Assembly (NCBI RefSeq): GCF_001717585.1
Contig: NZ_CP017042.1
Coordinates: 1,325,001 to 1,389,000, forward strand
Length of the DNA: 64,000 nt
Origin: Selenomonas sp. oral taxon 920
GTDB taxonomy: Bacteria; Bacillota; Negativicutes; Selenomonadales; Selenomonadaceae
Reading direction: 5' to 3'
Below, piece after piece: positions 15,071 to 60,580 of the stretch. Each line of letters begins with the position of its first letter. Within the stretch, counting starts at the first letter, position 1. The notes beneath the pieces were generated by a model. That model saw only the letters and a list, made by a program, of their open reading frames with translations. It was not told where the DNA came from and searched no databases. The position numbers were made by a program, and so were the translations under genes.

Positions 15071-15099
15071 AGAATAACACGATTCAGACATCAGAGCAA
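15071..15099 (-). promoter_or_regulatory. Promoter at end of terminase gene
   Basis: -35 TTGCTC (15,099-15,094), spacer of 17, -10 TATTCT (15,076-15,071). It overlaps the last codons of the large terminase and points into the candidate small RNA region. Confidence 0.5.
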
Positions 15100-16692
15100 C
15101 AAAATTCCTCGCTCATCATAAACAGACGCGGAGGTATCATTCCCACAGCGAATCGCACGATCCAGAGCCATGATGAGGGCAATTACGCCGTCGATCTTCT
15201 CGGTGGACTTCTCCTTGTCCGCCTTGATGTTCCCCGCAGGGTCAGTGCGAATGAAGATGTTGTCTGCCATCCAGCGCATGACGGGATTCCCGCCGTGCGC
15301 TATTTTCTTTTCCAAGGTCAGCTTCATCAGCTCCTTGGTCGGCGGACTCATATCCTTGAAGCCCTGCCCGAATGGAACAACGGTGAAGCCCATCCCTTCG
15401 AGATTCTGTACCATCTGCACTGCGCCCCAGCGGTCGAAGGCAATCTCGCGAATGTTGTACTTCTCACCAAGTCGCTCAATGAACGCCTCGATAAATCCGT
15501 AGTGAACTACATTTCCCTCTGTCGTTTGCAGGTAGCCCTGCCTCTCCCACACGTCATAGGGAACATGGTCGCGCTGTACACGCAGGTCGATATTCTCCTC
15601 GGGAATCCAGAAGTACGGAAGCACGGCAAACGGATCATCCTCCTCCGTCGGAGGGAACACGAGTACAAACGCCGTAATGTCCATCGTAGAGGAAAGGTCA
15701 AGACCGCCGTAGCAGACACGGCCCTCTAAGGACTCAGCGTCAACAGGGGCGGAACACGCATCCCACTTATCCATCGGCATCCACCGAACGGACTGCTTCA
15801 CCCACTGATTCAGGCGCAGCTGACGGAAGCTGTTCTCCTCGGCAGGATTCTGCCGTGCAGAGTCACAAGCCGCCTGTACCTTGTCGATACCGACCGTGAT
15901 GCCGAGCGACGGATTCGAGCGCTTCCAGACCTCCGGGTCTGTCCAGTCCTCATCCTCCTTCGCTCCGTAAATTACAGGATAGAAGGTCGGATCAATCTTT
16001 CTCCCTTCCAGAATGTCTTTTGCTTTCTGGTGCGTCTCGTAGCAGATGGACTGCGTATCCGTCCCTGCTGTGGTGATGAGAAAGTAGAGCGGCTGCATAC
16101 GCGCATCGCCGGATCCTTTTGTCATGACATCAAAGAGCTTGCGGTTCGGCTGCGTGTGCAGCTCATCAAACACAACGCCGTGAATATTGAAGCCGTGCTT
16201 CGAGTATGCCTCTGCCGAAAGTACCTGATAGAAACTGTTCGTCGGCAGATACACCATCCGCTTCTGGGAGGCAAGGATCTTCACCCGCTTGCTGAGTGCG
16301 GGACACATACGCACCATATCTGCTGCGACCTCGAATACGATACTCGCCTGCTGACGATCAGCGGCACAGCCGTACACCTCGGCACGCTCCTCGCCATCGC
16401 CACAACAGAGAAGCAGTGCAACGGCGGCGGCAAGCTCTGATTTTCCTTGCTTCTTGGGCAGCTCAACATACGCCGTGTTGAACTGACGATAGCCATTCGG
16501 CTTCAAAATTCCAAAGATGTCTCGGATAATGCGCTCCTGCCAGTCGATGAGTTCGAAGGGCTTTCCTGCCCACGTCCCCTTCGTATGGCGCAGACACTCG
16601 ATAAAGCCTACGGCATAATCCGCAGCGGCTTTGTCATAGTGCGCGTCCTCTGCCATGAACTTCGTTGGTGTGTAGTCCGTCAGTTTTCGCAA
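15091..16692 (-). CDS. Phage terminase large subunit
   Basis: 533 residues: the ATP-driven packaging motor and nuclease. The ATPase P-loop variant is ELPKKQGKS (77-85) and Walker B is VVFDE (173-177), followed by a TTAG coupling motif (207-210). The RNase H-like nuclease begins at YGGLDLSS (D332), and a late acidic residue is in IDGVIALIMALDRA near the C-terminus. It normally adjoins the portal; here the HNH/secreted cargo pair and a possible small RNA sit between. I see no difference from the copy at 61,901-63,502. Confidence 0.95.
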   Translation of the reverse strand: MRKLTDYTPTKFMAEDAHYDKAAADYAVGFIECLRHTKGTWAGKPFELIDWQERIIRDIFGILKPNGYRQFNTAYVELPKKQGKSELAAAVALLLCCGDGEERAEVYGCAADRQQASIVFEVAADMVRMCPALSKRVKILASQKRMVYLPTNSFYQVLSAEAYSKHGFNIHGVVFDELHTQPNRKLFDVMTKGSGDARMQPLYFLITTAGTDTQSICYETHQKAKDILEGRKIDPTFYPVIYGAKEDEDWTDPEVWKRSNPSLGITVGIDKVQAACDSARQNPAEENSFRQLRLNQWVKQSVRWMPMDKWDACSAPVDAESLEGRVCYGGLDLSSTMDITAFVLVFPPTEEDDPFAVLPYFWIPEENIDLRVQRDHVPYDVWERQGYLQTTEGNVVHYGFIEAFIERLGEKYNIREIAFDRWGAVQMVQNLEGMGFTVVPFGQGFKDMSPPTKELMKLTLEKKIAHGGNPVMRWMADNIFIRTDPAGNIKADKEKSTEKIDGVIALIMALDRAIRCGNDTSASVYDERGILLL

Positions 16693-16707
16693 GCAATCAC
16701 CCCCATC

Positions 16708-16732
16708 AAAAAAGAGCCGCTGTCAGCGACTC
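16708..16732 (-). terminator. Terminator-like hairpin just upstream of large terminase
   Basis: On the minus strand GAGTCGC and GCGGCTC (16,732-16,726 and 16,720-16,714) form a 7-bp stem with one G-T pair, followed by TTTTTT. It lies 16 bases before the terminase ATG, inside the late operon. A second GC-rich hairpin at about 16,762-16,777 has its T-tract on the other strand. Confidence 0.65.
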
Positions 16733-16787
16733 AAAAACACAGAAACGAGAAGCAGCCCCGAAGGGCTGTTTTGTTGTTTGGTGCGGC

Positions 16788-17066
16788 TTAGATGCGCTTC
16801 ATGCACCAAGCCATCGCGTGTCCGCCGTCCTCGAAAAGCTCCGTGGCGGCTTCGACGAGGTTCAGGCGGCATTCGATGTCCGCAAGTCCCGTCTCCTCCG
16901 GCGTTTCGACCATCTCGTAGATGGCTGCGTGGAAGCCCCAGCACTCCATCCCGACGACAAGGATCTGCTCGCCGTAGCAAAGGATCGCGCCGCTCGTTCC
17001 GAACCGCATCTCATCGAGGTGCTCCATCGTGGTGGTCTTCGGCCATCTTGCTTCTGCTTTTCTCAT
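16788..17066 (-). CDS. Small phage protein, 92 aa
   Basis: Begins MRKAEARWPKTTTMEHLDEM, with GCGAGGAA before the ATG. It has a mixed helical composition with two central cysteines. It is one of several small genes ahead of the large terminase and is identical in prophage 2 (63,598-63,876). No family is recognised. Confidence 0.7.
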   Translation of the reverse strand: MRKAEARWPKTTTMEHLDEMRFGTSGAILCYGEQILVVGMECWGFHAAIYEMVETPEETGLADIECRLNLVEAATELFEDGGHAMAWCMKRI

Positions 17067-20710: not shown

Positions 20711-20801
20711 TGTTTAACCTCCTCAACTAAGCAGGATTTTTTATATGTTTTACCGAATCAACTAAATAGAGTTGAGAGTTTGGAAAGAGAGGGATTATGT
20801 G

Positions 20802-21326
20802 ATGAAAAAGATAGTACTTTCTTTGATTGCCGGTTGGATTCTTTTTATTGCAACAGCATATGCTAGTCCATATGACGGCTATGACATTACAAACAAAGTC
20901 GAACAATATGGTGATGACGTACGGACTGTTGCCGCATTGCCAAAGCCCAACAAACCTCCAAAGCAGAATTATATGTTTGGGGACACAAACTATCCTCTTG
21001 TTGGACTCACTACATATGGCGCTATCTTTCTTGATAAGACAAGTTGCAAGTACGAGATTGCAGATGGTGTAGCAATTATTTCTTGCCTTGTTTATTATGG
21101 CAGTGGAGGTGCTGACGGTAACGGAAATGCCGCGAAACATTCTCCGACGATCATTCGGTTCAGCACTTACAAGACAGATAAACGGGTCATAAAATTCTTG
21201 AGTTCTGTTTCTCCAAATACCGGAAAGAATGATACCGAAAGCACATACCGATCTGACAACGGCTTTTTGAATGGTCTGTTTTGGTATTGTGCCGGAGTCC
21301 TTGATCTGAGCCAGTATCTCGATTAA
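20802..21326 (+). CDS. Secreted prophage cargo protein (moron) 3
   Basis: 174 residues with a clean signal peptide (MKKIVLSLIAGWILFIATAYA, cleavage before SPYDG). The mature part has three cysteines and a GAIFLDKTSCKYEIADGVAIISC strand pair. GAGAGGG precedes the ATG at 20,802; the in-frame TTG ten codons earlier lacks a good site. It points against the late operon between the small terminase and the methyltransferase and has its own terminator. No family recognised; likely exported lysogeny cargo. Confidence 0.78.
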   Translation: MKKIVLSLIAGWILFIATAYASPYDGYDITNKVEQYGDDVRTVAALPKPNKPPKQNYMFGDTNYPLVGLTTYGAIFLDKTSCKYEIADGVAIISCLVYYGSGGADGNGNAAKHSPTIIRFSTYKTDKRVIKFLSSVSPNTGKNDTESTYRSDNGFLNGLFWYCAGVLDLSQYLD

Positions 21327-21343
21327 CCTAAACTAAAAATACG

Positions 21344-21376
21344 GAGCATCTATCTATGGATGCTTCTTTTATTTTC
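21344..21376 (+). terminator. Terminator of cargo gene 3
   Basis: GAGCATC (21,344-21,350) pairs with GATGCTTC (21,359-21,366) around an 8-base loop, followed by TTTTATTTT. It lies directly downstream of the plus-strand cargo gene and runs into the 3' end of the small terminase gene. Confidence 0.75.
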
Positions 21377-21929
21377 TTGACCTCAGCAGCCGCTCCATAC
21401 GATCTTCCTGCGGCGAGCCGCTGAATGTCGTGGTGCAGTTTTGCTTTACGATGTCGAAAATTTCATACCAAAGCAGATTGGACTGCTTCTGAAACGCCTG
21501 TCCCATTTGGACGAAGGGGCTTGCAATCGCCCCGCCTGTAGTCGGATGCTTGCCAATGAGCCCGTATTGACTCATTGCTTCCTCACATTGGATGAAACGG
21601 GCAAATGCCTGTGCGTAGCTTTCGATGAGACGAGGATTCACGAGACGCTCACAGCCGCGCTCCTTCAGCCACAACCATGTCTCGCGGAAAATCTCATCCG
21701 CACCGAGCGGCTTTCCGTTCCTCTGCCGTGCGGACAGGAATTCGCTCGGGGTTGGCATTTCCTCGCCGTAGAGGTCGGCGGCATCCACAAGGTTTGTGCC
21801 ATCCAACTCCGTCGTTGGGAACTCCATGATGTGCGCCGTGCGCCCGCCCGCAATTTTATCTGTCAGTGGTTCAGGTTTATCTCCCGCCCGGATACGCCGC
21901 CCTCCGCGATTTGTTCCGTCACGCGCCAT
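21369..21929 (-). CDS. Phage terminase small subunit, P27 family
   Basis: 186 residues. The P27-type pattern is visible: a basic N-terminus, FRETWLWLKERG, then LIESYAQAFARFIQCEEAMSQYGLIGKHPTTGGAIASPFVQMGQAFQKQ. It binds the packaging site and recruits the large subunit. In most P27 phages the large terminase follows directly; here about 4.7 kb with methyltransferase, endolysin and small genes intervene. Confidence 0.92.
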   Translation of the reverse strand: MARDGTNRGGRRIRAGDKPEPLTDKIAGGRTAHIMEFPTTELDGTNLVDAADLYGEEMPTPSEFLSARQRNGKPLGADEIFRETWLWLKERGCERLVNPRLIESYAQAFARFIQCEEAMSQYGLIGKHPTTGGAIASPFVQMGQAFQKQSNLLWYEIFDIVKQNCTTTFSGSPQEDRMERLLRSRK

Positions 21930-22041: not shown

Positions 22042-22398
22042 CTATCTGTCGCCACTGCCACGTTGGTGAATCCGCTCATGGCACGATACGCAGAGCGACA
22101 TCAAATTGCTCTCATCATGTGTGCCTCCCTCAGAAATCGGTCGGATATGATGCACGAGTGTCGCAAGGACGTATCTCCCCCGTTCTTTGCATTGCTCGCA
22201 GAGCGGATGCCCTGCCAAATGACGATCACGAATCCTGCGCCATGCACTGCCGTATCTCTCGTGCTGATCGTAGCCGCGCGTGAAGTGGTCATAGTGCCGC
22301 TGCATCGTTTTCTCGTGCGTCTCGCAGTAGCAGCTCTTTCGATCCGTAAGGTTCGGACACCCCGTCATGCGGCAGGGTCGCTTCGGCTTTCTCGGCAT
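22042..22398 (-). CDS. Phage HNH endonuclease
   Basis: 118 residues, starting MPRKPKRPCRMTGC with GAGGAGGTG before the ATG at 22,398. The N-terminal zinc-ribbon cysteines (CRMTGCPN...CYCETH) precede the HNH core: LCEQCKERGR, LVHHIRPISEGGTHDESNLMSLCVSCHERIH. Phage HNH proteins at this position, before the small terminase, assist terminase cleavage in cos-type HK97-like phages. It is the first gene after the late promoter/terminator region. Confidence 0.92.
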   Translation of the reverse strand: MPRKPKRPCRMTGCPNLTDRKSCYCETHEKTMQRHYDHFTRGYDQHERYGSAWRRIRDRHLAGHPLCEQCKERGRYVLATLVHHIRPISEGGTHDESNLMSLCVSCHERIHQRGSGDR

Positions 22399-22416: not shown

Positions 22417-22460
22417 ATCAAAAAAGCCCTCGCGGAGAATTTCTTCTCCGAGAAGGCTGA
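22417..22460 (-). terminator. Strong terminator between late promoter and first late gene
   Basis: On the minus strand AGCCTTCTCGGAGAA pairs with TTCTCCGCGAGGGCT (15 bp, one mismatch and one G-T) across a 4-base loop, followed by TTTTTT. It lies about 20 bases after the predicted late transcription start and 19 bases before the HNH gene. Confidence 0.85.
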
Positions 22461-22486
22461 TTCCATATCCTATTTTTGCTGAGTCT

Positions 22487-22495
22487 ATCATATCA
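22487..22495 (-). promoter_or_regulatory. Late promoter, extended -10
   Basis: The minus strand reads TGATATGAT (22,495-22,487), a near-perfect extended -10. No good -35 lies 17 bases upstream; that space is instead filled by the first TGACAT-type repeats (22,508 onward), as in an activator-dependent promoter. Confidence 0.6.
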
Positions 22496-22507
22496 CATTG
22501 GTCATAC

Positions 22508-22592
22508 TGACATCAATCTGACATTCACTGACATTTTGTGACATTTTTCCGCTTTTTGACATTTCATGACATTCCCTGACATTTCATGACAT
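22508..22592. repeat. Eight helically phased TGACAT repeats (late control region)
   Basis: TGACAT begins at 22,508, 22,519, 22,529, 22,539, 22,557, 22,567, 22,577 and 22,587, at intervals of 11, 10, 10, 18, 10, 10 and 10 bases. All copies point the same way, so they lie on one face of the helix. They stand between the DUF1492 regulator gene and the late promoter, a likely multimeric binding site for that regulator. Confidence 0.8.
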
Positions 22593-22602: not shown

Positions 22603-23013
22603 TCACGAAGGAACGACCACACTTTGCAGACCGCGCTCATGGATACGGTATATCTGCCGTTCCCCGACTTCCATGCGCCTGGCAATCTCCGTGACCGTGT
22701 GATACCCCATGTAGCGCATCTCCAAGACCAACCGCTCATCCATATCCTCCACAGCCTGTATCACGCCATAGATTTCGGCGCGGAGGCTTACCAAGCGATC
22801 AATCTCACGATCAATCTCTTCCTCCTGCTCCACCAACTTCACCACCACATCGGAGAGCTTGTGCGGATTCTTTGTTGCACGCCCCGGCATATCGCTAAGA
22901 ACGGTGGTGGTCTTGGTGGCCATGCTGCGCAGCCGCACGGACTGTTCCAGCATGCTGTCTATTTTTCTGTCAATCTTGAATGCCTGGCTCAGATATTCCT
23001 TAGCGGTCATCAT
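22603..23013 (-). CDS. DUF1492/ArpU-type late transcription regulator
   Basis: 136 residues. The N-terminal coiled coil (MMTAKEYLSQAFKIDRKIDSMLEQ..., EEIDREIDRLVSLRAEI) is followed by a sigma-70 region-4-like helix-turn-helix (DERLVLEMRYMGYHTVTEIARRMEVGERQIYRIHERGL). This is the DUF1492 pattern found before the late genes of firmicute phages. The ATG pair at 23,013/23,010 follows AGAAGGG; its stop is 11 bases from the TGACAT array. It probably activates the late promoter. Confidence 0.88.
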   Translation of the reverse strand: MMTAKEYLSQAFKIDRKIDSMLEQSVRLRSMATKTTTVLSDMPGRATKNPHKLSDVVVKLVEQEEEIDREIDRLVSLRAEIYGVIQAVEDMDERLVLEMRYMGYHTVTEIARRMEVGERQIYRIHERGLQSVVVPS

Positions 23014-30096: not shown

Positions 30097-30591
30097 TTAG
30101 AGAAAATTTTTCTTGTCGGGCAAGAATTTCCTGAGCCGCTGATAGATGCGCCGCATCCGCTCCGATATGGTGCTTTCCAATACGCCCTCCTGACGCGCAA
30201 TCTCCGACTGGCGCACGCCTTCCCAGAACACACGCCGCAGAAGCTCCCGTTGCTGCGGACGAAGCTGCGCAATGGCGTGATGAAGCTCCGAATAATCCGC
30301 GCCGAGCAAAGCCGTCGACACATCGGGCATGGCATCCGCCCTCCGGCGGTCAAGATCATCGGCAGACAAGTGGACATGACGGCGCGTCTCGGTGCGATTC
30401 CTTCGGAAGGTTGGAGCATTGACCTCGGCATCCAAAATCTCCTGTGCCGTGCGCCGCTGAACTGCGTTCTTGTCCTCGGCTTCATCCAGACGCTGCCGAT
30501 AGTCCGTCTCCACCATGACGGTGCATTCCTCCTCGGGAACTTCCAAAACAGTCGGATGGAGCTTGTCTTCGTAATACAGAGTGATTTTCAT
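30097..30591 (-). CDS. Sigma-70 region-4-like early phage regulator
   Basis: 164 residues. The N-terminus (MKITLYYEDKLHPTVLEVPEEECTVMVETDYRQRL) is a known start of firmicute phage sigma-like proteins. The C-terminal 70 residues are a sigma region-4 helix-turn-helix (LRPQQRELLRRVFWEGVRQSEIARQEGVLESTISERMRRIYQRL). GGAAAGGA precedes the ATG at 30,591; upstream in-frame ATGs lack sites. It is the first gene of the early minus-strand block. Confidence 0.85.
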   Translation of the reverse strand: MKITLYYEDKLHPTVLEVPEEECTVMVETDYRQRLDEAEDKNAVQRRTAQEILDAEVNAPTFRRNRTETRRHVHLSADDLDRRRADAMPDVSTALLGADYSELHHAIAQLRPQQRELLRRVFWEGVRQSEIARQEGVLESTISERMRRIYQRLRKFLPDKKNFL

Positions 30592-30811
30592 GGTCGTGTC
30601 CTTTCCGCCTTGGATGCGGGCGGCAGGAACACAAAAGGCCGATGCACGCGATGTACACCGGCCTCTTTCGCCTGAAAATGGGCGCAAAAAGTCACGGTGG
30701 AAACACCGAAGTGCCAATACTGCTCGTGCAGTTCGTCTCTTCGTGCGTTCCCGCCGCCCCTAATGGCCATCTCAAGGCATTGAGAAATTTACAAGATTTA
30801 CGATTACGGCT

Positions 30812-47121: not shown

Positions 47122-48195
47122 TCAGACACCTCCTGCTTTCTTCCATTTATTGAGATTGCTCATCCTGCGCAGACGGTAGTTATAGCATCCACGCATTAGT
47201 TCTGTAAACTGACCGTCTTTCCATAAATATAATGGCGATCCCGTGCTGACAAGATATTTCCCCTGTCCCAGAGGGCAGAGACTTGTACGGGCAGTCGGAT
47301 TCGTTTCCAGTTCCATGAGCAGCTCGTCCTTTGCACTGTAAATCTTTGAAATGTACTTTTTCCCAGAGATAAGATAGTCAAGATTTGCAGGAAAGCGCAT
47401 ATACATGCCGTCATGGAGAGGATAGCGGATGCTGTAATCCGGTGCGCTCCATCTGCTTTCCGAAGTATGAGATTCCCCTGTAACAGAGTCTCTTGACGTT
47501 GTTTTGGTTTTCTCCATCCAAGGCTCAAGATTGCTGCCATCGAAGAACACATAACGGTCTGTGCTGACATGACTTCCGCCTCCCCCATGCTCTGATGTTG
47601 CGTGCCATATCATCACTTTGAAGTTCCCAGCTTTATCCACCCGCCCGCCTTCTGTTTGACAGCTATAGAGGTCAGTGGGACCGGATACGGCGGGAGCACC
47701 AAACATCTGCACAAGATCGTATGCGGCGATGATCTCTCCGTTGCGTTTGACAGAGAGAATACTGTCACGCTGATCTGCCCCGATGAGCGGGAACACGAGA
47801 GCATTGACAGCTTCAAGGGTATAGAGATTTCCCCGCTCATCCATTTCGGCATCAAGCATTCCATAGCCTGTAACATACGCGAAGTGGCGACTGCTGTTGA
47901 CCATCCATATATCCTCTTGGGAAAAACCGAGCGGATGAATCTTTCCTTTTGCATAGTATGAATGGAGCATCTGGTTTTTTTGATCCTTCCACTTTATCTG
48001 GAGGAGCGGTATGCCGGAAAGGACATTCGTCGGAACATAACTGCCGCCGCCCTCGGCTTCATGCCCGTAGACGCAGCGACCATCCGTCCAGATCCATTCA
48101 CCCGGATAAACAGAACGATTCCCTATGCAGGTAAGCCACGATCCGTCAGCAAGCACTTTATTTCCGCTCACAGCTTTCACTCTAGCCCTGTGCAT
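47122..48195 (-). CDS. Phage tail-tip/fibre protein, complete copy
   Basis: 357 residues (MHRARVKAVSGNKVLADGSWLTC...). It begins with a beta-type domain, then has propeller-like strands (DIWMVNSSRHFAYVTGYGMLDAEMDERGNLYTLEAV, LVSTGSPLYLWKDG). The last virion gene before the holin, so a tip or fibre is likely. The N-terminal 246 residues can be compared with prophage 1 (1-740) and are similar throughout. Confidence 0.78.
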   Translation of the reverse strand: MHRARVKAVSGNKVLADGSWLTCIGNRSVYPGEWIWTDGRCVYGHEAEGGGSYVPTNVLSGIPLLQIKWKDQKNQMLHSYYAKGKIHPLGFSQEDIWMVNSSRHFAYVTGYGMLDAEMDERGNLYTLEAVNALVFPLIGADQRDSILSVKRNGEIIAAYDLVQMFGAPAVSGPTDLYSCQTEGGRVDKAGNFKVMIWHATSEHGGGGSHVSTDRYVFFDGSNLEPWMEKTKTTSRDSVTGESHTSESRWSAPDYSIRYPLHDGMYMRFPANLDYLISGKKYISKIYSAKDELLMELETNPTARTSLCPLGQGKYLVSTGSPLYLWKDGQFTELMRGCYNYRLRRMSNLNKWKKAGGV

Positions 48196-48199
48196 CGTC

Positions 48200-48430
48200 T
48201 CACGCTCCCACGATAACGGCGGTACCGCCCCTAGAAATCTGTACCCACACAAGACATCCGTCACTGGTGTTGCAGTCTACTGCCGCACGGAAAGGATACG
48301 ACCGCTCGCCGATATGAACACGTCCATTCTGAATCCTGCCGCGCCGCGCCTGTGATTCACCCACTTGTGCGTTCTTTATCCCCGTCCGTATTGCTGACGC
48401 AAGCCCCATAACGCCGTGCATCAAAACCAC
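48200..48430 (-). CDS. Small phage tail-region protein (prophage 2)
   Basis: 76 residues, ortholog of the gene at 745-975. Differences are concentrated at residues 12-28 (SAIRTGIKNAQVGESQARR), while the GRVHIGERSYPFRAAVDCNTSDG core is unchanged. It overlaps the end of the upstream tail gene. Confidence 0.75.
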   Translation of the reverse strand: MVLMHGVMGLASAIRTGIKNAQVGESQARRGRIQNGRVHIGERSYPFRAAVDCNTSDGCLVWVQISRGGTAVIVGA

Positions 48431-50112
48431 CTCACCATCTTGATGGTCTGCCGCAGAAGGCGCGGCGTAAGCTCCACCGTATTGGACTGCAAAAAATACT
48501 CGTGTCCTTCGAAGCGGATGCGCTCGGTGAAATCAACGATGTGGTCAATATCCGGAACGCCGCTACGAATCCGTGCGTGAATCTCCACCGTAACCGTCTC
48601 CTGTGTTTTGCGATTGAGCCATTCGATCTCGCTCGTCAGCATCCGTAAATATTCTGCGCCCACAACGGGAAACTCGGTGTCGATGAGCGAGGAATACGGC
48701 AGCGTATCATCACTGGCATAATGAGCACCAAGGCTGAGATTCGACTGTTCGACGGTGAACTGACTTGCCTTGCCGCCGGGCTTGCCCTGCGACAAGCTGC
48801 TGCCCTCCAATACGCCGTCCACATAGACGGTAGTCGCATACCATCCGTAGCCGAGCGGCGCGTGGTAGGTGATGCGTTCCGTTCCCTTTTCTCTGTTCCA
48901 GTCCTCCCAGTCATATTCATTGTGCTTCTTCCCATCATTGACCGCCTCGGTGGTACGTTCCCACTCCTTGAAGAGATAGACATCGCGCCCCGTAGTGGCG
49001 TAGGCGTAATCTGTGCGGCTTGTCGAGCCGTCCGTGTTGTGCGTGCGTTTCTCGGCAAGATATTCGCCATCATAGGAGTATGTGCTGTATCCGTTCTCAT
49101 TCGTCTCGCGCACGAGGAAGCCGTTGGAATACGTTCTGCTGATTTCTTTGAATGAAATCGTACCTGTGAAGGGAACAGGCGTGGCATCCTCCTCATTGTG
49201 CGCTCCACTTTCATGATTGTTGTTCGCGCTGTGCCAGACGGAGCGCAGGAGTTTTCGCTCTACGGTCGGCTGTGCGTGCGGCCAGTTCGTAATATCGACC
49301 ACGGATTCCTCCATACCGCGCTGAATGATATGGAGTGTGTCGCCCCGTATGAACACATTGATCTGACGCTGCGGCAGTTTTGCCGTCCATCCGAAGAGTG
49401 CGGAGATAAAGTCATGATACGTCATTCCACTCCCCTCGAAGTTCTGCGACGGTGTGAAATCATCGGTCAGACGATGAAGCCGAAGCCCGAGTGCCGATGC
49501 AATTTCCGCCGCATAGCGCGAGACCTTCGCCCGCTCGACGTAGATATGGATGGGCGTGTAGAGGAGTGTGTCTTTACTGTACGTTCCCTTGACAGACTGC
49601 ACGATTCCGCGCTGACTCGTTTCCTCCACGAGAAAGCGAAAGGCATAGTCCATCACCCGCCCCTCTACAGTCGCGCCAATGGAGAGAGGATTCACCGTTT
49701 CGAGTTGAATGTTATCCGAGAGACTGAGTTCGCCGAGCGTCACGGAGAATGAGCGAATGCCGCGCTCTCTAAACTCTGCATAGGTCAGTGTATGAGGAAT
49801 CTCTATCCTCGTATCTGCAACAATACGTGACTGCTTAATGAGCGCCCGCTTCGTATCTGCCAACGCTGCTTCGCAATGACCGATGCGCCGCTGTGTGTCA
49901 CTCGTTACTGTGATTTTCTTGACAATCCGAATATCGCGCAGGGTATCTGCACGCATGGCGATGGATGTGTTGAGACGGCGCGACGTATCTCCGCTGACCT
50001 GCACGGGCTGACGGAATACGGGAATCACTGTGGCGTATATAATCGGTTTGAGGTGAATACGCCCCATCGGCAGCCACGAAATGCAGACGGCAGGTTTCAG
50101 CTTGATGCTCAT
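48421..50112 (-). CDS. Phage tail protein, 563 aa (prophage 2)
   Basis: Ortholog of the gene at 966-2654, with the same ATGA-type overlap at its start and the same YD-like beta-strand repeats. About nine in ten residues agree. The ATG at 50,112 follows GGAGAGCGGG. Confidence 0.8.
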   Translation of the reverse strand: MSIKLKPAVCISWLPMGRIHLKPIIYATVIPVFRQPVQVSGDTSRRLNTSIAMRADTLRDIRIVKKITVTSDTQRRIGHCEAALADTKRALIKQSRIVADTRIEIPHTLTYAEFRERGIRSFSVTLGELSLSDNIQLETVNPLSIGATVEGRVMDYAFRFLVEETSQRGIVQSVKGTYSKDTLLYTPIHIYVERAKVSRYAAEIASALGLRLHRLTDDFTPSQNFEGSGMTYHDFISALFGWTAKLPQRQINVFIRGDTLHIIQRGMEESVVDITNWPHAQPTVERKLLRSVWHSANNNHESGAHNEEDATPVPFTGTISFKEISRTYSNGFLVRETNENGYSTYSYDGEYLAEKRTHNTDGSTSRTDYAYATTGRDVYLFKEWERTTEAVNDGKKHNEYDWEDWNREKGTERITYHAPLGYGWYATTVYVDGVLEGSSLSQGKPGGKASQFTVEQSNLSLGAHYASDDTLPYSSLIDTEFPVVGAEYLRMLTSEIEWLNRKTQETVTVEIHARIRSGVPDIDHIVDFTERIRFEGHEYFLQSNTVELTPRLLRQTIKMVRWF

Positions 50113-51026
50113 GTTCCCGCTCTCCATCCAAACTGCCGCCCTGCGACTTCCGCAATCGTCATGGAGACAGTGCGCGTGTCCATAACGGTGGAATTCGGAT
50201 TCTGTTCGACAACGTGTCTCCTGTATTCGGTGACAGTGCCCCCGCTCTTTTCAATCGCCGTCAGAGCGCACAACCCTTCTGCCGTGCGGTAGGCAGGATT
50301 CCCAATGAGTGAAATCCCCGTCACACGCGAATCTGCGCCATACTGCGTGGACAGGGCGGCAATATCGACCGTTTGCAAAAGCTCCTGATTCGCAGCCGTC
50401 GCCTCATAACTCCCGTCCCCGCAGTCGGTCATATTTGTCTGCGTCTCTTTGACTGGCAGCATAACGACCTGCTCTTTCGGATTGATTTCCTCATCTGAGA
50501 AGATGAGATTCGAGATAAGGATGTCATCATTCTTACTGAGAACTGTGATGGTATTCGCATATGTATCATTGGCATACCAAAAATTTCTGTCCCGTTTGTT
50601 GCAAATTTCTCGCTCATTGACGATCACATGAAAGATGCCGTCATTGTTTCTTCCCTGTTTAATGTGAAACCACAGCGTATTGACTGCATCTGAGCGCACA
50701 AAATCGGCTGTTTCGTAAATATCAAATACGGTACTGGCATCGTGTCCCTCAATGTCCCATTTCCCTCGGTGCGGGTACACTCTGACCCAGTTGCCGAATC
50801 CAATACCAATCTCAAGGCGAACATCCGATGCGTTCTGTGGATTCTTGAGGTACATATCTAGTTTTGCATAAAACTCGGTGGGTACTTCAGAAAATGTGAG
50901 GCCCTTATGATCCTCCGGCTGCCAGAAGGATACACCCGTCTTGCTGTACTGCTTACCCGTCACCGTTGTACCGCCACTGGTCGAGAGCAGCTCTGCATAG
51001 CCTGGATTAATGTATCTGAACGCCAT
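50109..51026 (-). CDS. Phage tail protein with variable central domain (prophage 2)
   Basis: 305 residues, ortholog of 2651-3559. The ends are nearly identical, but residues 40-165 differ strongly (here NPQNASDVRLEIGIGFGNWVRVY; there a KLSFAIGGYKIIEAEKF core) while keeping WFHIK and DDILISNLI. This is the most diverged structural segment between the two phages, which supports a binding role for it. Confidence 0.72.
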   Translation of the reverse strand: MAFRYINPGYAELLSTSGGTTVTGKQYSKTGVSFWQPEDHKGLTFSEVPTEFYAKLDMYLKNPQNASDVRLEIGIGFGNWVRVYPHRGKWDIEGHDASTVFDIYETADFVRSDAVNTLWFHIKQGRNNDGIFHVIVNEREICNKRDRNFWYANDTYANTITVLSKNDDILISNLIFSDEEINPKEQVVMLPVKETQTNMTDCGDGSYEATAANQELLQTVDIAALSTQYGADSRVTGISLIGNPAYRTAEGLCALTAIEKSGGTVTEYRRHVVEQNPNSTVMDTRTVSMTIAEVAGRQFGWRAGT

Positions 51027-51036
51027 ACGAACCTCC

Positions 51037-51450
51037 TCAGTCCGACACCAAAAGGCCCTCTGCTTGAATGTCCACACTCACATCCTGCTGCGGTTTCTCG
51101 TCCGCTGTGCTGATTGCCTTTACCCAGAAAATCGTATTCCTGTCTGCAACATTGGATAATGAGATACTGTCTTTCCATTCGGCAGAATCCAACGCCGTCT
51201 GAGCAGTGTATTTGTTATCCATCGCGACCTTCCACTTATCCGCATGACCGCCGACGAATTTGATTGTAAGTGTTCCGTCAATATGGAATCCACTCTCGCA
51301 GCGTACGGCGCACTTGACGACTTTCTGCTCGCCCTTGCCCGCATCGAGCAGGACGAAGATGGGCGCAAGTTCCGTGCCGGAGCTGACCTCCGTCCCGTCC
51401 TTGCCGCCCTCGGTCGGATTGTTCATATAGATATGCAGCAGTTCTGCCAT
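51037..51450 (-). CDS. Phage tail-region structural protein (prophage 2)
   Basis: 137 residues, ortholog of 3570-3983. The ATG at 51,450 follows GGAGGGT. Differences lie mainly in residues 80-110. Confidence 0.75.
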   Translation of the reverse strand: MAELLHIYMNNPTEGGKDGTEVSSGTELAPIFVLLDAGKGEQKVVKCAVRCESGFHIDGTLTIKFVGGHADKWKVAMDNKYTAQTALDSAEWKDSISLSNVADRNTIFWVKAISTADEKPQQDVSVDIQAEGLLVSD

Positions 51451-51452
51451 TG

Positions 51453-51794
51453 TCATACCCTCCAAAATTCAAGAGACAGTTTATATACCTTCGGGAAATG
51501 AGCCATATACTCGTAAGACTTCACCACCACACGCATGGACGGCAGGATGTTCCCGCCCTCATCCGTGACGCTCACCATTGCACGGCTGTCCCAGTAGCCC
51601 TTGATCTTTTCCCATGCGGCAGAAGTGACCGTGACCGAACAGGAAATACGATCGCCCTCTGCAATATGCCCGAAATCCTGCACGACCGCTCCGCCGACAA
51701 TTTCCAAAAGCTGTTGACGGTCGTCGGGAATGGTCTGCCAGTTTTCAACGGATAATGTCCGTACCTCACCAATGTGAATATGAATTGGAATCAC
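51453..51794 (-). CDS. Phage tail protein, 113 aa (prophage 2)
   Basis: Ortholog of 3986-4327. An in-frame TAG just upstream fixes the start at GTG 51,794, inside the 3' end of the tape-measure gene. This is the clearest evidence for that start in both copies. Confidence 0.75.
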   Translation of the reverse strand: MIPIHIHIGEVRTLSVENWQTIPDDRQQLLEIVGGAVVQDFGHIAEGDRISCSVTVTSAAWEKIKGYWDSRAMVSVTDEGGNILPSMRVVVKSYEYMAHFPKVYKLSLEFWRV

Positions 51795-54306
51795 CCCCTA
51801 GGGCATTTTCAACGGCAGGACGGATGCGGTCGGCGACATGATCGGCGAGCATACGCATTCCCTCGTTATCCTCCGTGACGGCGTTCTCGATTTGCACCTG
51901 TATGTGAATCTGACGGTTGTCTGTCATGGATGGAGCAGTCTGACCGCTGTTCCGCGCGTCGGATGCGGAAGAAACGCCTTGCACCTGCCGCCCGAGTTCC
52001 GACATCATTCCCGCATAGGAGAACTCCTGTCCATTGACACGAATGCGTGAATTGTCCTCACGCTTCTCGGGGGCAAAATTCGGCAGGAGATTCTCCATCG
52101 CCCATTTACGCCCGGACTGAAACTGTTGGAGAAGCTCCGGTGTCAGCCCCAAGTCCTCTGCCGTAAACTTGTTCTTTTTGCGAAGGTACTGCATCAATCC
52201 GACCTGCCCGGACTTCTTGAACACCTGCAGTTCCTCTTTCTGGGAGCGGAGAACTTCCAAGGCGGCGTTACGTTTGGCATCGAGTTTTTCCTTCTCTGCC
52301 CACCGCGTCGCTTCGACCTCATCCAGCCCCTTCTGTACCCACGCATCCTTCTCACGCTCAATCTCGGCAAGACGGTTCTCGAGTTCTGTTTTCCAGATGG
52401 AGTCAATATTGGTGGCAACATCCCGCTCCCACTGCTCCATGACACGCGCCTTGCTCTCACTGAGCCACGTCTGCGTTTGGACTTCATCTAGTCCCTTCTG
52501 ACGAAAGGCATCGGCTTCGCGGGCGATGGAATCCAGCTTGTTTTGGAGATCCGTCTTGTAGAGAGCATTCGCCTTGTCCACAACATCCCGCTGAAAGTCG
52601 GAATAAATCTTCGCTTCCTTTGCCAAGCGGTATTCGTCGATCAGATGCGGATCGGCGCCCTTCCGGAAGAACTCAAAGGATTCACGATCCAGAGCGTGTA
52701 GAGTGTTCTGGATGTCCGTGTGTGTCAGTGCATACAGGTTGTCCGTCAATTGTGCGGTCGCCTTTGCAGATTCACTGACCATCTTTGCGGCATCTTTCTC
52801 GGCTGCCGCACGGATTTTCGCCGCCTTTGCATTCTGCTCCTGCGCCTTGGCGTTCTTCTCCGCCTCGACACGGGCGCTCTCCTCTGCCACAGCTTTCTCT
52901 TTGGCAATCTTCTGCTGTTCCAGATATTGCTTGTACTCATCGCCGTAAATAGCGTCAAGAACCGTACCGCCGAGGAACGGAACAGCAATCAGCGGAGATG
53001 CCACGGGGTGATTTTTCACAAGCCAGCTGTTCGCCTCAGCGTGCTCATTGACCTTATGAATCTGCTCACCAACAAAGCCCGCAAGTTCTGCAACGGTCTT
53101 GAGTGCTTCACCCCAACCAAGGACGGCATCCTTGATCTCGTCCTTGTTGTCGCGAATTGTCTCGATGAACGTCTGGAAACCGTCATTGATCTCCGGCATG
53201 AGTTCTTCGGCGGCAGGAAGCAGTGCCGCGCCAAGGGCAAGTTTCAACTGCCCCGCTTCCATCTCCATCGCACGCCACTTGAGATAGGTCTCATGCGCCT
53301 GTTCCGGGTCAAGCAGTCCCGTGGTCTTGACGCGAGAAGATATGGTCATCAGATCGTCATACTGTTCGAGAATGGGGATGAGCGCAGCCCCGCGTGCTCC
53401 GAGGACTTCGGCGGTATATGCTTCCTCCATCCCCGCTTCGCTTGCTGTCTTGTACCCTTTGGCGAGCTGTGCCAGCTGCTCGTTGAGCGGCAGGAGATTT
53501 CCCTGCTGGTCTTTGAGGGCAATCCCGAAACGAGAGAGGGCGCGAGAGGTGTCATTCCCGCTCTCCCCCGCAGCAGATACCTGCTTGTCCAGACGTGCAA
53601 TCAGAGGTATGACACTCTTAATGTCCGTATCCGCAAGCTGAAACACCCGATTGAGTGTCGCCGCCTCACCTGCCGAGACGTGAAGCCGCTGTGTGAGTTT
53701 GTAGACGTTCTCGCCCGCAAGCATCGCGTCTTTGGTGATATTGAACAATCCCGCACCTGTCGCAGCCACAACCATAACGGCAGCCATCTTTGCCGAGAGG
53801 ACGTTGAATCCGCTCGTAAGGTTTTTAACACCCGCTTGCGCCGCCGTCATTCCCGCTGAGATACGCCCACCGAGCGTGCCGGAAAGCACTGCGCTCTCCT
53901 TGAGGCGGTTATTCAGTTTCCGCACCTCGGCTTCGGTCTGCGCGACGGTTCTCTGCTGACGCAGGAGATTGCTTTCGGCACGCCGATAGGATGCGCTGTC
54001 CACGCCGTCATTCTTCTTGACAGACTGCAAAACAGCGGCAAGAATCTGTTCCTTTTGCCGCTGAATGTCCAACTCACGGTTGATCGCCTGATGACGAACC
54101 TTGATCTTGTCGAGTTCCGTACCCACACCGTCGAGTTTGGCGAGGTCGGCATCGAGTTTCAGATGGATGTTGTTTGCCTTGCTGTTGAGCCGTGCGATGG
54201 AATCCGAGACGGTCTTGCCCGCCGTGTCAAAGTCCAGCTGCAGCTGTGCAATGTTGAGACCGATGTCGAGATAGAGTTCATCAATCTTCTGTCCGCGCTT
54301 TGCCAC
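51766..54306 (-). CDS. Phage tail tape measure protein (prophage 2)
   Basis: 846 residues, ortholog of 4299-6851, with the same coiled-coil/hydrophobic/coiled-coil layout. The four-residue difference lies in the Gln/Ser-rich stretch near residue 780, where the two sequences also diverge most. Nearly equal length implies equal tail length. Confidence 0.95.
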   Translation of the reverse strand: MAKRGQKIDELYLDIGLNIAQLQLDFDTAGKTVSDSIARLNSKANNIHLKLDADLAKLDGVGTELDKIKVRHQAINRELDIQRQKEQILAAVLQSVKKNDGVDSASYRRAESNLLRQQRTVAQTEAEVRKLNNRLKESAVLSGTLGGRISAGMTAAQAGVKNLTSGFNVLSAKMAAVMVVAATGAGLFNITKDAMLAGENVYKLTQRLHVSAGEAATLNRVFQLADTDIKSVIPLIARLDKQVSAAGESGNDTSRALSRFGIALKDQQGNLLPLNEQLAQLAKGYKTASEAGMEEAYTAEVLGARGAALIPILEQYDDLMTISSRVKTTGLLDPEQAHETYLKWRAMEMEAGQLKLALGAALLPAAEELMPEINDGFQTFIETIRDNKDEIKDAVLGWGEALKTVAELAGFVGEQIHKVNEHAEANSWLVKNHPVASPLIAVPFLGGTVLDAIYGDEYKQYLEQQKIAKEKAVAEESARVEAEKNAKAQEQNAKAAKIRAAAEKDAAKMVSESAKATAQLTDNLYALTHTDIQNTLHALDRESFEFFRKGADPHLIDEYRLAKEAKIYSDFQRDVVDKANALYKTDLQNKLDSIAREADAFRQKGLDEVQTQTWLSESKARVMEQWERDVATNIDSIWKTELENRLAEIEREKDAWVQKGLDEVEATRWAEKEKLDAKRNAALEVLRSQKEELQVFKKSGQVGLMQYLRKKNKFTAEDLGLTPELLQQFQSGRKWAMENLLPNFAPEKREDNSRIRVNGQEFSYAGMMSELGRQVQGVSSASDARNSGQTAPSMTDNRQIHIQVQIENAVTEDNEGMRMLADHVADRIRPAVENALGGDSNSYSHW

Positions 54307-54319
54307 TCCATCTCCCTCC

Positions 54320-54523
54320 CTACATCACGTCGTCAATAAATCGCTCGGATTGCTGTTGCTCACAAAGAGCGGTCACAACAAGCTGATCGAGCAGGAAGCC
54401 AACCTCGTGTGCGTCAATTTCCTGCATCGTCCACCCATAGGCGGACTGCAGCCGCTCATAATAGCGCAGTAGATTCTGGTACGGAGAAAGAACTACGCCT
54501 CTTTCCCCGTCTCTCCGTTTGGG
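54320..54523 (-). CDS. Tail chaperone -1 frameshift extension (prophage 2)
   Basis: Continuation of the chaperone gene after slippage at C CCA AAC (minus strand 54,523-54,517), giving PKRRDGERGVVLSPYQN. The heptamer is unchanged from prophage 1, although the codons after it differ (GGAGAGACG against GAGGAGATG), which supports selection on the site. Confidence 0.8.
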   Translation of the reverse strand, partial: PKRRDGERGVVLSPYQNLLRYYERLQSAYGWTMQEIDAHEVGFLLDQLVVTALCEQQQSERFIDDVM

Positions 54524-54807
54524 AGGTTCACCAGTTTGGAAAACGTCAACGACTGAATCCATCGAAAGAGTGCACGGGTAAGCGGTACAATGTCTGCGAT
54601 ATCCACATTTTCGTCGATGACCTCTTTTGTGACATCATCACGTCCGAATCCGAGAACGATCAGACGGACGTGCTCGTCCAGAAAATCTTCAAGGCTCAGA
54701 CCTTCCTTGTCGGCATCAAAAAAGGCAAGGAACTCGCGCCACACCTTCATCTTCGGAGGTTTCGGCATGATCTCCCTGCCCGCAATATGCAGTATCGGTG
54801 TTTCCAT
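54493..54807 (-). CDS. Phage tail assembly chaperone (prophage 2)
   Basis: 104 residues, ortholog of 7037-7351. It starts at the second of two adjacent ATGs, after GGGAGGAC. The zero-frame product ends NGETGKEA. Confidence 0.85.
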   Translation of the reverse strand: METPILHIAGREIMPKPPKMKVWREFLAFFDADKEGLSLEDFLDEHVRLIVLGFGRDDVTKEVIDENVDIADIVPLTRALFRWIQSLTFSKLVNLPNGETGKEA

Positions 54808-54818
54808 CATGTCCTCCC

Positions 54819-55418
54819 TCAGACCTGCTCGTACCACTTCGTTCCTGTCTCTGCGGCAAATCCCGCCGCCTCCTCATCCGCCTTGGCGTAGGACAGCCCG
54901 TCCGAGAGACGATAGATTGCCTTTGCCGTCAGTGTCGGCGTGTCGAACTGGATGCTCTCCTGCTTCGAGTTGCCGGATTCCGAGGGTTCTGTGAATTGGA
55001 CTTTGTAGAACTTGGTGAACCTCTTCTTGCCGTTGCGCTTGTCCGACTGGAATAGGACGGCGAAGTATGGCGCAACATCGTCCTTGCCCGCCTTCATCAC
55101 ACCGTTCTCGATACTGTGTCCCAAAAGATAAGCCGTGTATTCCAAAGGAAGCGCGGCAGTGTCAAAGGTCAGATCGTAGGATGCGGTATTGGATGCCGTA
55201 TCCACGGACTGACCGTCGGCGAATAGTTCCGCCTGATTCGTCTGCGGCTTGATGTCTACCTTGCGCAGAAGTTTTCCGAGGGGAATCGGCTTCTCGTAGG
55301 TCGCTGTGCCGCCCGACTCGTCGGTGAGCATCTTGGCGATGTGAAGTTTCTGGATGTTGATGAACTGCCCGCTTGTCAGATTCCCTGCAGGCTTTGCTGT
55401 TGGTGTTGGACTTGGCAT
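54819..55418 (-). CDS. Major tail tube protein (prophage 2)
   Basis: 199 residues, only about six differences from the prophage 1 protein (7363-7962). This is the most conserved of the diverged virion proteins, as expected for a self-polymerising tube. Confidence 0.88.
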   Translation of the reverse strand: MPSPTPTAKPAGNLTSGQFINIQKLHIAKMLTDESGGTATYEKPIPLGKLLRKVDIKPQTNQAELFADGQSVDTASNTASYDLTFDTAALPLEYTAYLLGHSIENGVMKAGKDDVAPYFAVLFQSDKRNGKKRFTKFYKVQFTEPSESGNSKQESIQFDTPTLTAKAIYRLSDGLSYAKADEEAAGFAAETGTKWYEQV

Positions 55419-55419
55419 A

Positions 55420-55782
55420 TTATTCTCCCTCCATTGCTGTTTTATAGTCTGTGATTTCCACGAATATATCTTTCTCTGTCAGTTCCTGCGTCTGCACACG
55501 GACAAACCCGAGAGGCAGAAGCGCGTTCTGCACGGCTCTGTGAATCTCCCGAAACCGTCCGTCCTTCGTCAGGATGTGGATACGCACCGTGATTCGTCGT
55601 TCCATCTCCGTGCCATCTACCGAAAGGGCGGGAACATCCGAGATCACCGAATAGACGAGAATCGGATACGTCCCTGCGTCGGGACTGCACCCGTGGTAGA
55701 TGCTCTTCTTCCCGTGTGCGAGAAGCTGAGACAGTGCCTTGGAGCGCACAAGAGCCTGATACACCATCCTTGCGACACTCAT
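55420..55782 (-). CDS. Tail completion protein, DUF3168 (prophage 2)
   Basis: 120 residues, ortholog of 7964-8326 with a few conservative changes. It is coupled to the gp10-like gene by a four-base overlap. Confidence 0.85.
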   Translation of the reverse strand: MSVARMVYQALVRSKALSQLLAHGKKSIYHGCSPDAGTYPILVYSVISDVPALSVDGTEMERRITVRIHILTKDGRFREIHRAVQNALLPLGFVRVQTQELTEKDIFVEITDYKTAMEGE

Positions 55783-56177
55783 TTCCCTCGCCTCCGAATG
55801 GCAGACTGCACGGCATCGACGATGGCAGAGCGGATACCGTCCTTCTTGGCATCGAGTGCCGGATAGAGGAACGGTTTGTTAATCCTCGGGCTGAACTCGA
55901 CAAGCACGCCATAGAATACGCCGTCACTGGATTCTGCATCCGCTGCAATCCTCCAAACAGAGCCGTCTTTTCTGCGCAGTCGCTTGTGGATGGAATCTCG
56001 CAGTGCGCCTTTGACCACACGCTTATCTGTTCCCGTATAGACGGGACAGCGGTTCTTTGCCTCCGCGACCACATCATCCGCGCCATGTGCGAGTGCTGCC
56101 TTTGCTGCAGCCGTCGCCTCCGCGCCAAGCTCGGACAATATCTTCTCGGCAGAGACGAATCCTCTATATCTAGCCAT
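55779..56177 (-). CDS. HK97 gp10-like protein (prophage 2)
   Basis: 132 residues, ortholog of 8323-8721 with four or so changes (for example KAALAHG for KEALAHG). Confidence 0.88.
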   Translation of the reverse strand: MARYRGFVSAEKILSELGAEATAAAKAALAHGADDVVAEAKNRCPVYTGTDKRVVKGALRDSIHKRLRRKDGSVWRIAADAESSDGVFYGVLVEFSPRINKPFLYPALDAKKDGIRSAIVDAVQSAIRRRGK

Positions 56178-56508
56178 CTTCCACCAACTCCCTGCATTCT
56201 ATGACAAGCCACTGTTTCTTCCCGCCGAGCGGATACGGTGGCGCAATAGGTATGAGCCGCTTCCCACTCCACTCCACAATATCCGTCACACGTACATCCG
56301 CACGGTAACGAACAACGATGCGATAATCCACCTCCTGCACCTTCTCCGCATAACCGTCGGAGATTTTCGCGGCAAAGGGCAGAACGAGTGCCCAGGCTTT
56401 ACCGACTTCCTGCACCGACGATGAAAGGATATTCCCCTCATCGTCCGTATCCATCACGGGGCGCAGGATGGAAATTCGGTGACGCAGTTCGCTCATAGAC
56501 ACCTGCAT
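56170..56508 (-). CDS. Phage head closure protein (prophage 2)
   Basis: 112 residues, ortholog of 8714-9052. The start is ATG here where prophage 1 has GTG, with the same GGAGG spacing, which confirms the longer start in both. Confidence 0.87.
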   Translation of the reverse strand: MQVSMSELRHRISILRPVMDTDDEGNILSSSVQEVGKAWALVLPFAAKISDGYAEKVQEVDYRIVVRYRADVRVTDIVEWSGKRLIPIAPPYPLGGKKQWLVIECRELVEDG

Positions 56509-56784
56509 CTAAAAGACCTCCTTCCGCACACCAAAGAGGAGCGACCGCAGTGTCAAGGCAAGCCCTCTGTGATCCGCTTCCTCCCGATGTTCATAGAGAT
56601 AGGACACGGCATAGAGCACCGCGACACGCACAATTGCCTGATCTTCAACCTTGGACAGCTTCTTCACGCGCAGTAATGCAGTACAAATCTGCTCTGCCGT
56701 TTCCGTAAAATGTGTGAGGAGATCGTCCTCCTCATCCCCGTCAATCCGCAGATACTGCTTGACTGCTGCAAGCGGCACAAGCAT
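56509..56784 (-). CDS. Head-tail connector protein (prophage 2)
   Basis: 91 residues; the translated sequence is identical to 9053-9328, although the DNA differs at silent positions. Only about 75 bases separate it from the capsid gene because cargo gene 1 is absent. Confidence 0.9.
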   Translation of the reverse strand: MLVPLAAVKQYLRIDGDEEDDLLTHFTETAEQICTALLRVKKLSKVEDQAIVRVAVLYAVSYLYEHREEADHRGLALTLRSLLFGVRKEVF

Positions 56785-56858
56785 AGAACCACCTCCCTCT
56801 TTGCCGCAAAAACGAAAATCCATCAATTTGGTGCTGAATTTATCAGCGATTCCATACA

Positions 56859-58040: not shown

Positions 58041-58056
58041 GATCTTTTTCCCTCCG

Positions 58057-58752
58057 TTAATGTGAAATAGAAAAGAGCCGCTTCTTAAACGGCTCTGCAT
58101 CGACATTAGTATTTTGCGTTCCCTGCCCGAATTTCGAGAGCAGGGAGTTTGTGACGGCGGCGCGGGAGAAGATCAGCCCGTCTGCCGTATCCGTCATAGG
58201 ACGCTGAACGTCCGCATAGAGAACGGAATCCGCGAAGCCGAGTTCCACGGCTTTCTTTGCGTTCATCCACGTCTCGGCATCCATCAGCCGTGAAATCTTC
58301 GCACGGGAAAGTCCTGTCTTGATCTCGTAGGCGTTGATGATGCTCTCCTTGATCTCGGCAAGGAATGTGATTGTCCGCTCCATCTCGTGCGTGTCTCCGA
58401 TGGAAACAGTCATCGGGTTGTGGATCATCAACATCCCCAAGGGTGAAATCTCAACGGTTGATCCTGCCATCGCCACAACGGATGCGGCAGAAGCGGCAAT
58501 CCCGTCAATCTTGACCGTGACCTCGCCGGGATACTCCATGAGCATATTGTAGATTTGCGCCGCCGCATAACAGTCTCCGCCGGGTGAGTTGATCCAGAGG
58601 TCAATATCTCCCTCGGCGGCGTTCAGTTCAGCGCGAAACATCTGAGGTGTGACCTCATCTCCCCACCACGTTTCGTCCGAAATCTCACCGTCCAGGAGCA
58701 AGACACGCTTCTCTCCCTCGTTCCGTACCCAGTTCCAAAATTTACGTTTCAT
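58057..58752 (-). CDS. Head maturation protease, ClpP-like (prophage 2)
   Basis: 231 residues, ortholog of 11,256-11,945. All catalytic segments are conserved (INSPGGDCY, GIAASAASVVAMAG, MLMIHNPM). Changes are near the C-terminus (YADVQRPMTDTADG). Confidence 0.93.
   Translation of the reverse strand: MKRKFWNWVRNEGEKRVLLLDGEISDETWWGDEVTPQMFRAELNAAEGDIDLWINSPGGDCYAAAQIYNMLMEYPGEVTVKIDGIAASAASVVAMAGSTVEISPLGMLMIHNPMTVSIGDTHEMERTITFLAEIKESIINAYEIKTGLSRAKISRLMDAETWMNAKKAVELGFADSVLYADVQRPMTDTADGLIFSRAAVTNSLLSKFGQGTQNTNVDAEPFKKRLFSISH
58070..58096 (-). terminator. Terminator-like hairpin at protease/capsid junction (prophage 2)
   Basis: AGAGCCG and CGGCTCT arms (58,096-58,090 and 58,080-58,074; 7 bp) with TTTTCTATTT after them. 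The stem is one pair longer than in prophage 1, with an unrelated loop. Confidence 0.5.
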
Positions 58753-59995: not shown

Positions 59996-60068
59996 ATACA
60001 CCATCCATTCTTTATAAAAAGGATTTTTTTTCTGTTTAACGAAATCTCTCCATAAAGGAGATGATCTT

Positions 60069-60560: not shown

Positions 60561-60580
60561 CTATTTTCAGGAGGGTAATC

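Follow-up and report, generated by a model that had tools for sequence, protein, structure and literature searches.

A phased repeat array, an extended -10 promoter and a promoter-proximal terminator behind a DUF1492 (LtrB-type) gene: a candidate two-step late switch in a Selenomonas prophage

What does RNA polymerase have to pass in order to reach the late genes of this Selenomonas prophage? The question is raised by a short intergenic segment in the stretch of DNA analysed here (64,000 nt of Selenomonas sp. oral taxon 920, whose genome size is 2.44 Mb; hereafter the window), which a preliminary description had read as a late switch combining activation from a phased repeat array with release from an immediately following terminator. 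The prophage region of the window is transcribed on the minus strand, and the whole structure has to be read in that orientation (a correction to the original reading), with the repeats given as TGACAT reading ATGTCA. Along this strand, genes for RusA and a DUF4406 protein precede the DUF1492 regulator gene, and behind that gene lie eight ATGTCA repeats, an extended -10 element, the predicted start, a hairpin with T6, and the genes for an HNH protein and the terminase small subunit. The features are as follows.

22603..23013, minus strand: DUF1492 (LtrB-type) late regulator, 136 aa, with a C-terminal sigma region 4-like helix-turn-helix (HTH) (profile matches)
22557..22592, minus strand: distal block of four ATGTCA repeats in 10-bp steps (motif count)
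22508..22544, minus strand: proximal block, again four ATGTCA repeats, with its nearest site at about -33 to -28 (motif count, register)
22487..22495, minus strand: extended -10, TGATATGAT (sequence reading, consensus scan, matrix)
22480, minus strand: predicted transcription start (+1), inferred from the spacing to the -10
22474..22476, minus strand: A-tract at +5 to +7, kept in relatives (two or more A residues in 61 of the 74 loci that were aligned by their -10 only)
22420..22458, minus strand: promoter-proximal intrinsic terminator, hairpin 22458-22425 and T6 22425-22420 (hairpin search, folding energy)
22042..22398, minus strand: HNH endonuclease, first late gene (profile matches)
21369..21929, minus strand: terminase small subunit (TerS), P27/Terminase_4 type (profile matches)
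15091..16692, minus strand: terminase large subunit (TerL) (profile matches)

The assignment of the gene next to the array as a DUF1492 sigma-like regulator, made in the preliminary description, is borne out by profile searches (Pfam DUF1492 at 7.6e-8, above the curated cut-off, and Sigma70_r4 at 2.8e-6); 51 of 66 aligned relatives also match DUF1492. Sigma region 2 gave no match among the families listed and region 4 alone matches, so that the protein does not classify as a sigma-70 factor. A profile search against solved structures pointed to sigma region 4 as well (FliA, 1.1e-4). The structure model (mean pLDDT 91.9) consists of a long helical hairpin followed by the HTH. Foldseek returned no match for it in the PDB at E≤0.001, the best matches below significance being sigma factors, in most cases paired with an anti-sigma partner or part of a polymerase complex (e.g. 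region 4 of SigF aligned over 48 columns at 1.3 A, also below Foldseek significance), and the VIA structural list was filled by unrelated helical hairpins. As to the ArpU-like logic initially suggested, the ArpU model (TIGR01637), matched by 17 of the 66 relatives at E≤0.001, is absent from the NCBIfam matches of the window regulator at the same threshold. A scan of the regulator against Pfam, PHROGs and NCBIfam gave no match to any Q family. As a separate observation, a second protein with sigma region 4 (phrog_11138, 5e-23) is encoded at 30097-30717 on the minus strand, close to the upstream limit of the run of same-strand genes.

DUF1492 is LtrB, a described late-activator family that reportedly goes back to Quiles-Puchalt 2013. 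The equation of the two names is found in the available part of PMC5601072. Features of this family present in the window are the DUF1492 match, a gene position immediately before the late promoter and the packaging genes, and direct repeats upstream of the promoter. The array with its activator is a known kind of arrangement and not a new combination.

Relatives of the regulator were collected from viral contigs (16 loci in one search, the best 80 in another), genome contigs (the best 80 of 142), 41 related genomes (a match in 15) and 398 genomes of the phylum; in the last set matches were listed in 343 genomes, the weaker ones resembling host sigma factors, and only the returned loci of the best matches were used. 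One profile search applied to all of them recovered the regulator from 231 loci (near full length in 228), and 113 representatives (80% identity, at least 300 nt downstream) were analysed. A 26-nt matrix, trained on the same sequences that it scored, places an extended -10 (TRTGnTAtaaT) behind 101 of the 113 regulators at 6 bits or more and behind 94 of them at 10 bits or more, thresholds reached by 6.2% and 1.2% of shuffles, respectively (n=565). The element starts at a median of 28 nt after the regulator stop codon (94 loci). The 12 representatives scoring below 6 bits (L007, L010, L027, L044, L062, L073, L076, L084, L102, L119, L134 and L141) were excluded from the promoter-anchored counts; among them, L044 and L141 have a repeat array and a terminator visible by eye, L062 has a longer leader, and in L084 and L102 the array-promoter-terminator module is located further downstream. 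In the window, a consensus scan finds the same -10, paired only with a -35-like hexamer that agrees at 4 of 6 positions; the preliminary description had given the extended -10 as lacking a -35.

Does the array belong to this regulator? The eight TGACAT copies (at 22508, 22519, 22529, 22539, 22557, 22567, 22577 and 22587) are separated by steps of 11, 10, 10, 18, 10, 10 and 10, confirming the initial count. The hexamer occurs in the window 40 times versus 38.9 expected, and a 16-nt pattern with two repeats has two occurrences genome-wide, each within this array. A chance origin was rejected, with none of 2000 dinucleotide shuffles of a 200-nt stretch at the array holding at least four copies. 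The proposal that all repeats lie on one helix face holds within each block of four and fails across the blocks, which the 18-bp step sets about 100 degrees apart on a 10.5-bp helix.

Relatives carrying the same regulator have repeats too, so that the absence named in the preliminary description as a refutation was not observed. In the 70 nt upstream of the 101 promoters, repeated 5-mers peak at a lag of 10 (3.21 versus 0.11 in shuffled sequences) and again at 20 (2.05 versus 0.08), with lags 9 and 11 near background. Their register is fixed with respect to the -10 (one core spans -32 to -27 and a second -42 to -37, with a third that is weaker), a result reproduced with a regex-only alignment of 74 loci. 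Most phages have two to four repeats by eye, and the window two blocks of four. The period seems, as far as these sequences go, to be a property of each late-regulator family (loci L249-L546 for the others): 10 bp for DUF1492, 9 and 18 bp for phi13-type Ltr (six regions), 11 bp for both A118 gp66 (10 regions) and Alt (15 regions), and 11-12 bp for RinA (two regions only).

The sequence of the repeat differs among phages (e.g. ATGTCAC, ATGAGAG, ATTACAG, AAGACAC, GTTCAC) along with the recognition helix of the regulator. This covariation was quantified over 4078 protein pairs less than 55% identical, with motif similarity scored out of 6: the mean similarity was 3.92 for pairs with an identical recognition triplet (37 pairs), 3.17 with two of the three residues shared (325 pairs), 3.02 with one (1521 pairs) and 2.81 with none (2195 pairs). 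The difference was reached in none of 2000 permutations, which remove kinship only partly. The single strongest position is not a triplet residue but index 21 of the HTH stretch.

A second, related prophage in the same window provides a natural experiment. The two were noted at 1-22496 and 47456-64000, continuing outside the window, the late region of the second beginning at 47,456 and running beyond the window end. Their late regions share 83-94% DNA identity by segment, and this similarity stops at 22,496 (promoter position -16). On the far side of that point, the regulators are 42% identical and the arrays differ (ATGTCA versus GTTCAC). Such a breakpoint indicates that regulator and array form one unit, and the -10, leader, terminator and late genes another. 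Overall, the 10-bp period, the fixed register, the covariation with the recognition helix and the breakpoint at -16 make the array very probably the operator of the regulator, and the same comparative evidence lends strong support to the originally proposed activation via a cooperative array. With the register fixed at 10 bp, operator specificity would be partly predictable from the recognition helix, and the register suggests how two resident prophages whose late genes are nearly identical may keep their late switches separate.

Two further differences and likenesses between these prophages were noticed. An accessory gene with a signal-peptide-like start (20711-21368, plus strand) is located between TerS and a methylase gene, where the second prophage has 13 nt. 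Directly before TerL, both prophages carry two adjacent hairpins, identical in the two and the second with T6 (16690-16790 and 63500-63600), at which a late transcript may meet further terminators.

The remaining element of the locus is the hairpin behind the promoter. It spans +23 to +61 with T6 at +56 to +61, and the preliminary description was right to place a T6 terminator about 20 bases past the start and before the first late gene; its unbroken 15-bp stem is in fact two 7-bp segments around one mismatch (14 pairs, GAAA loop, -22.5 kcal/mol). Counting as strong any terminator whose hairpin reaches at least -15 kcal/mol and is accompanied by a T-tract, we found one in 73 of 101 loci in the 100 nt that follow the -10, versus none of 101 in the upstream 100 nt, 17 of 101 on the antisense strand, 5 of 494 at random same-strand positions and 1 of 303 in shuffles. 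At a laxer -8 kcal/mol the counts were 86 of 101 after the -10, 50 of 101 antisense, 9 of 101 upstream, 67 of 494 at random positions and 24 of 303 in shuffles; over 200 nt they rose to 98 of 101, with 76 of 101 antisense and 25% of shuffles. Some of these hits lie inside the next gene (e.g. in L074), so that not all are leader terminators. The median U-tract start is +50.5, and 67 of 98 fall in the range +40 to +60 (positions quoted as printed, one base too small on recount). The loop is often GNRA-like among the relatives.

In 13 of the 101 loci the best terminator within 200 nt is weaker than -8 kcal/mol or lies beyond +110; these include L055, L056, L057, L058 and L061, with longer leaders and a terminator at +114 to +143, as well as L045 and L096, in which a nearer one is seen by eye. 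No clear promoter-near terminator was found in L080 (a hairpin without a U-tract) and L110. Some duplicated or moved modules retain theirs (L096, L084, L102 and L213); none was found in L187 or in the first two of the three modules of L077. In the latter locus, the array-promoter modules lie 39, 308 and 398 nt past the regulator stop, and the third has another motif and the sole terminator. Genes of opposite orientation directly follow the late regulator in L102 (2981-3739) and L119 (2976-3545), as if this were an accessory-gene insertion site.

A structured RNA of about 70 nt is conserved between the late promoter and the terminator in ten loci (L055:1320-1420, L056:1338-1438, L057:1963-2063, L058:1986-2086, L059-L062, L242:232-332 and L247:10709-10809). 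It has no Rfam match in L055-L062, and its core pattern was found in 5 of 398 genomes, with a DUF1492 gene adjacent in every case. It is a candidate leader regulator or RNA antiterminator. Known RNA families were likewise rejected: the window gave no match at gathering cut-offs, and 14 relatives gave none even at E values as high as 1.

Since the terminator follows rather than precedes the late promoter, late transcripts must read through it. The highest-rated account of the locus, to which we give an even chance, is a two-step late switch composed of an LtrB-activated promoter and a Q-like termination checkpoint. In the first step, the sigma region 4-like LtrB would bind tandem sites 10 bp apart, the nearest adjoining the would-be -35, and recruit RNA polymerase to an extended -10 promoter that has no good -35. 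In the second, about 50 nt past the start, the polymerase would reach the intrinsic terminator: leaky starts and early-gene read-through would stop there before induction, and late transcripts would pass in the lytic cycle. Most likely, polymerase loaded at the LtrB array would be altered and stay resistant, like the Q-loaded polymerase at lambda pR'-tR'. Activation of the promoter by LtrB from the array is well supported by the comparative data; the anatomy of the second step is plain from the conserved terminator after, and not before, the promoter, and the agent and mechanism of read-through are inferred. It is to this anatomy that the release from termination proposed in the preliminary description is reduced. 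The simplest account is a gate, at which basal starts and early read-through end and which activated polymerase passes. Several observations count against a two-step switch: the relatives with no clear terminator near the promoter (e.g. L187, L080, L110 and the first two modules of L077), the many weaker antisense hairpins with T-tracts (50 of 101 at -8 kcal/mol), the -10-like pause element that is not conserved, and the A118 group, in which no clear promoter-proximal terminator was found in 10 distinct regions. Terminator-like sites also lack special enrichment on the sense strand of late regions (0.72 per kb, versus 1.35 late antisense, 0.41 early sense and 1.07 early antisense), although as a sign of processive antitermination this density comparison did not discriminate.

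A hairpin at this place is also seen in phages whose late activators have been studied. A hairpin with a T- or U-tract follows the repeats and the -10 in phi11 (RinA; TATGAT, before terS) and in phi13 (Ltr; TATAAT, before the first late gene), and one is located soon after the regulator gene of Sfi21 (DUF1492 match at 2.8e-13); TP901-1 (Alt) has a terminator-like hairpin just before terS. A terminator is present in 6 of 6 distinct phi13-type regions (-12.1 to -17.6, five different hairpins) and in both of two RinA-type regions (-13.2 and -12.9). The A118 group has 11-bp repeats and an annotated terminator before terS. Among Alt-type phages (15 distinct regions), a clear terminator within 260 nt was found in few of the 14 regions listed, e.g. 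in L523, and by eye further downstream in L505 and L513. By analogy with Q, one may tentatively generalize, at somewhat less than even weight, that in temperate phages of Gram-positive hosts a sigma region 4-like Ltr commonly does more than start late transcription: travelling with the polymerase, it would act as an antiterminator at a termination site near +50 and so be a convergent counterpart to the Q switch; this would amount to a second, so far unrecognised late checkpoint, with Ltr loaded from a phase-locked operator array.

The available parts of PMC13123087 and PMC5601072 treat Ltr-type proteins as promoter activators. In the former, the TATA box, the repeats and Ltr were all needed for activity of the phi13 promoter P23, assayed with a reporter reaching 50 bp downstream of the predicted start. 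Provided that the mutated box is the presumed 11-bp stretch, the reporter would stop at the second U-tract base. None of the words terminator, antiterminat, termination and hairpin occurs in the accessible text of that study (PMC13123087). Among the titles and abstract openings listed in our literature search, none concerned a terminator in Ltr late leaders, and an earlier mention is possible, e.g. in the founding papers on RinA and the Ltr superfamily. The terminator after the late promoter may be a new part. If a terminator regularly lies between promoter and first late gene, half of the switch would have escaped promoter fusions ending at about +50, and an extra control point would apply to induction, transduction and satellite hijacking.

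Alternatively, LtrB may activate initiation only, with the terminator a boundary that stops early transcripts arriving from the regulator gene and reduces basal late transcription, and with activated transcription passing by virtue of a strong promoter and incomplete termination. We regard this as the main rival, though less likely than not. There is little room upstream of the promoter (given the 28-nt median above), and a boundary may need a downstream place; Ltr work has, in the available part of PMC13123087, reported promoter activation without invoking antitermination. On the other hand, a boundary upstream of the array would cost nothing, yet that is where strong terminators are absent from all 101 loci. 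In L102 an oppositely oriented gene lies between the regulator and the module, which keeps its terminator, and the two tandem modules of L096 have one each.

It is improbable that the hairpin serves as RNA, either protecting or processing the 5' end of the late mRNA or yielding a short terminated regulator of the lambda 6S type. Its proximity to the 5' end, its often GNRA-like loop and the phage group with the structured RNA fit such a role. When hairpins were picked regardless of their tail, however, 71 of 101 loci had one at -10 kcal/mol or better, and the next six bases contained 4.0 T on average, a feature needed by a terminator and not by a protective hairpin. Least of all do we favor a passenger hairpin inherited with the HNH-terminase module and having no switch role, which is very unlikely: leader, terminator and HNH start are indeed near-identical in same-genus relatives with different regulators, and 90 of 98 hairpins fell into one cluster under single linkage at 60% (a limit on their independence), yet Sfi21, phi11, TP901-1 and phi13-type phages have differing hairpins at the same place.

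Returning to the two-step switch, its parts can be set against known systems. As in the LtrB family, a DUF1492 protein is encoded directly upstream of the HNH and terminase genes; the window differs in having eight repeats instead of the usual few and a terminator after the promoter, of which the available part of PMC5601072 makes no mention. With phi13 Ltr/P23 it shares repeats at the 3' end of the regulator gene, a TATA box, a late operon behind it and a hairpin with a U-tract, whereas phi13 has a 9/18-bp period, another Ltr family and a terminator that is undiscussed in the available part of PMC13123087. The same source cites four imperfect repeats at -76 to -32 for TP901-1 Alt. That system is also alike in its activator upstream of terS, direct repeats and terminator-like hairpin before terS, and differs in its period of about 11 bp and in its leader, which is several hundred nt long and contains tRNA-like stretches.

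Lambda Q acts from DNA at pR', a late promoter closely followed by the intrinsic terminator tR'. The switch described here is not a lambda Q system, because its regulator matches no Q family in Pfam, PHROGs or NCBIfam and the -10-like pause element of the lambda type is not conserved (18 of 101 loci versus 14% in shuffles). Moreover, the window promoter appears to depend on an activator, in contrast to the constitutive pR'. The Q-like logic of the preliminary description thus survives as an analogy and not as membership, and the analogy resides in the likeness that both systems display, a late promoter followed by a promoter-proximal intrinsic terminator that has to be passed.
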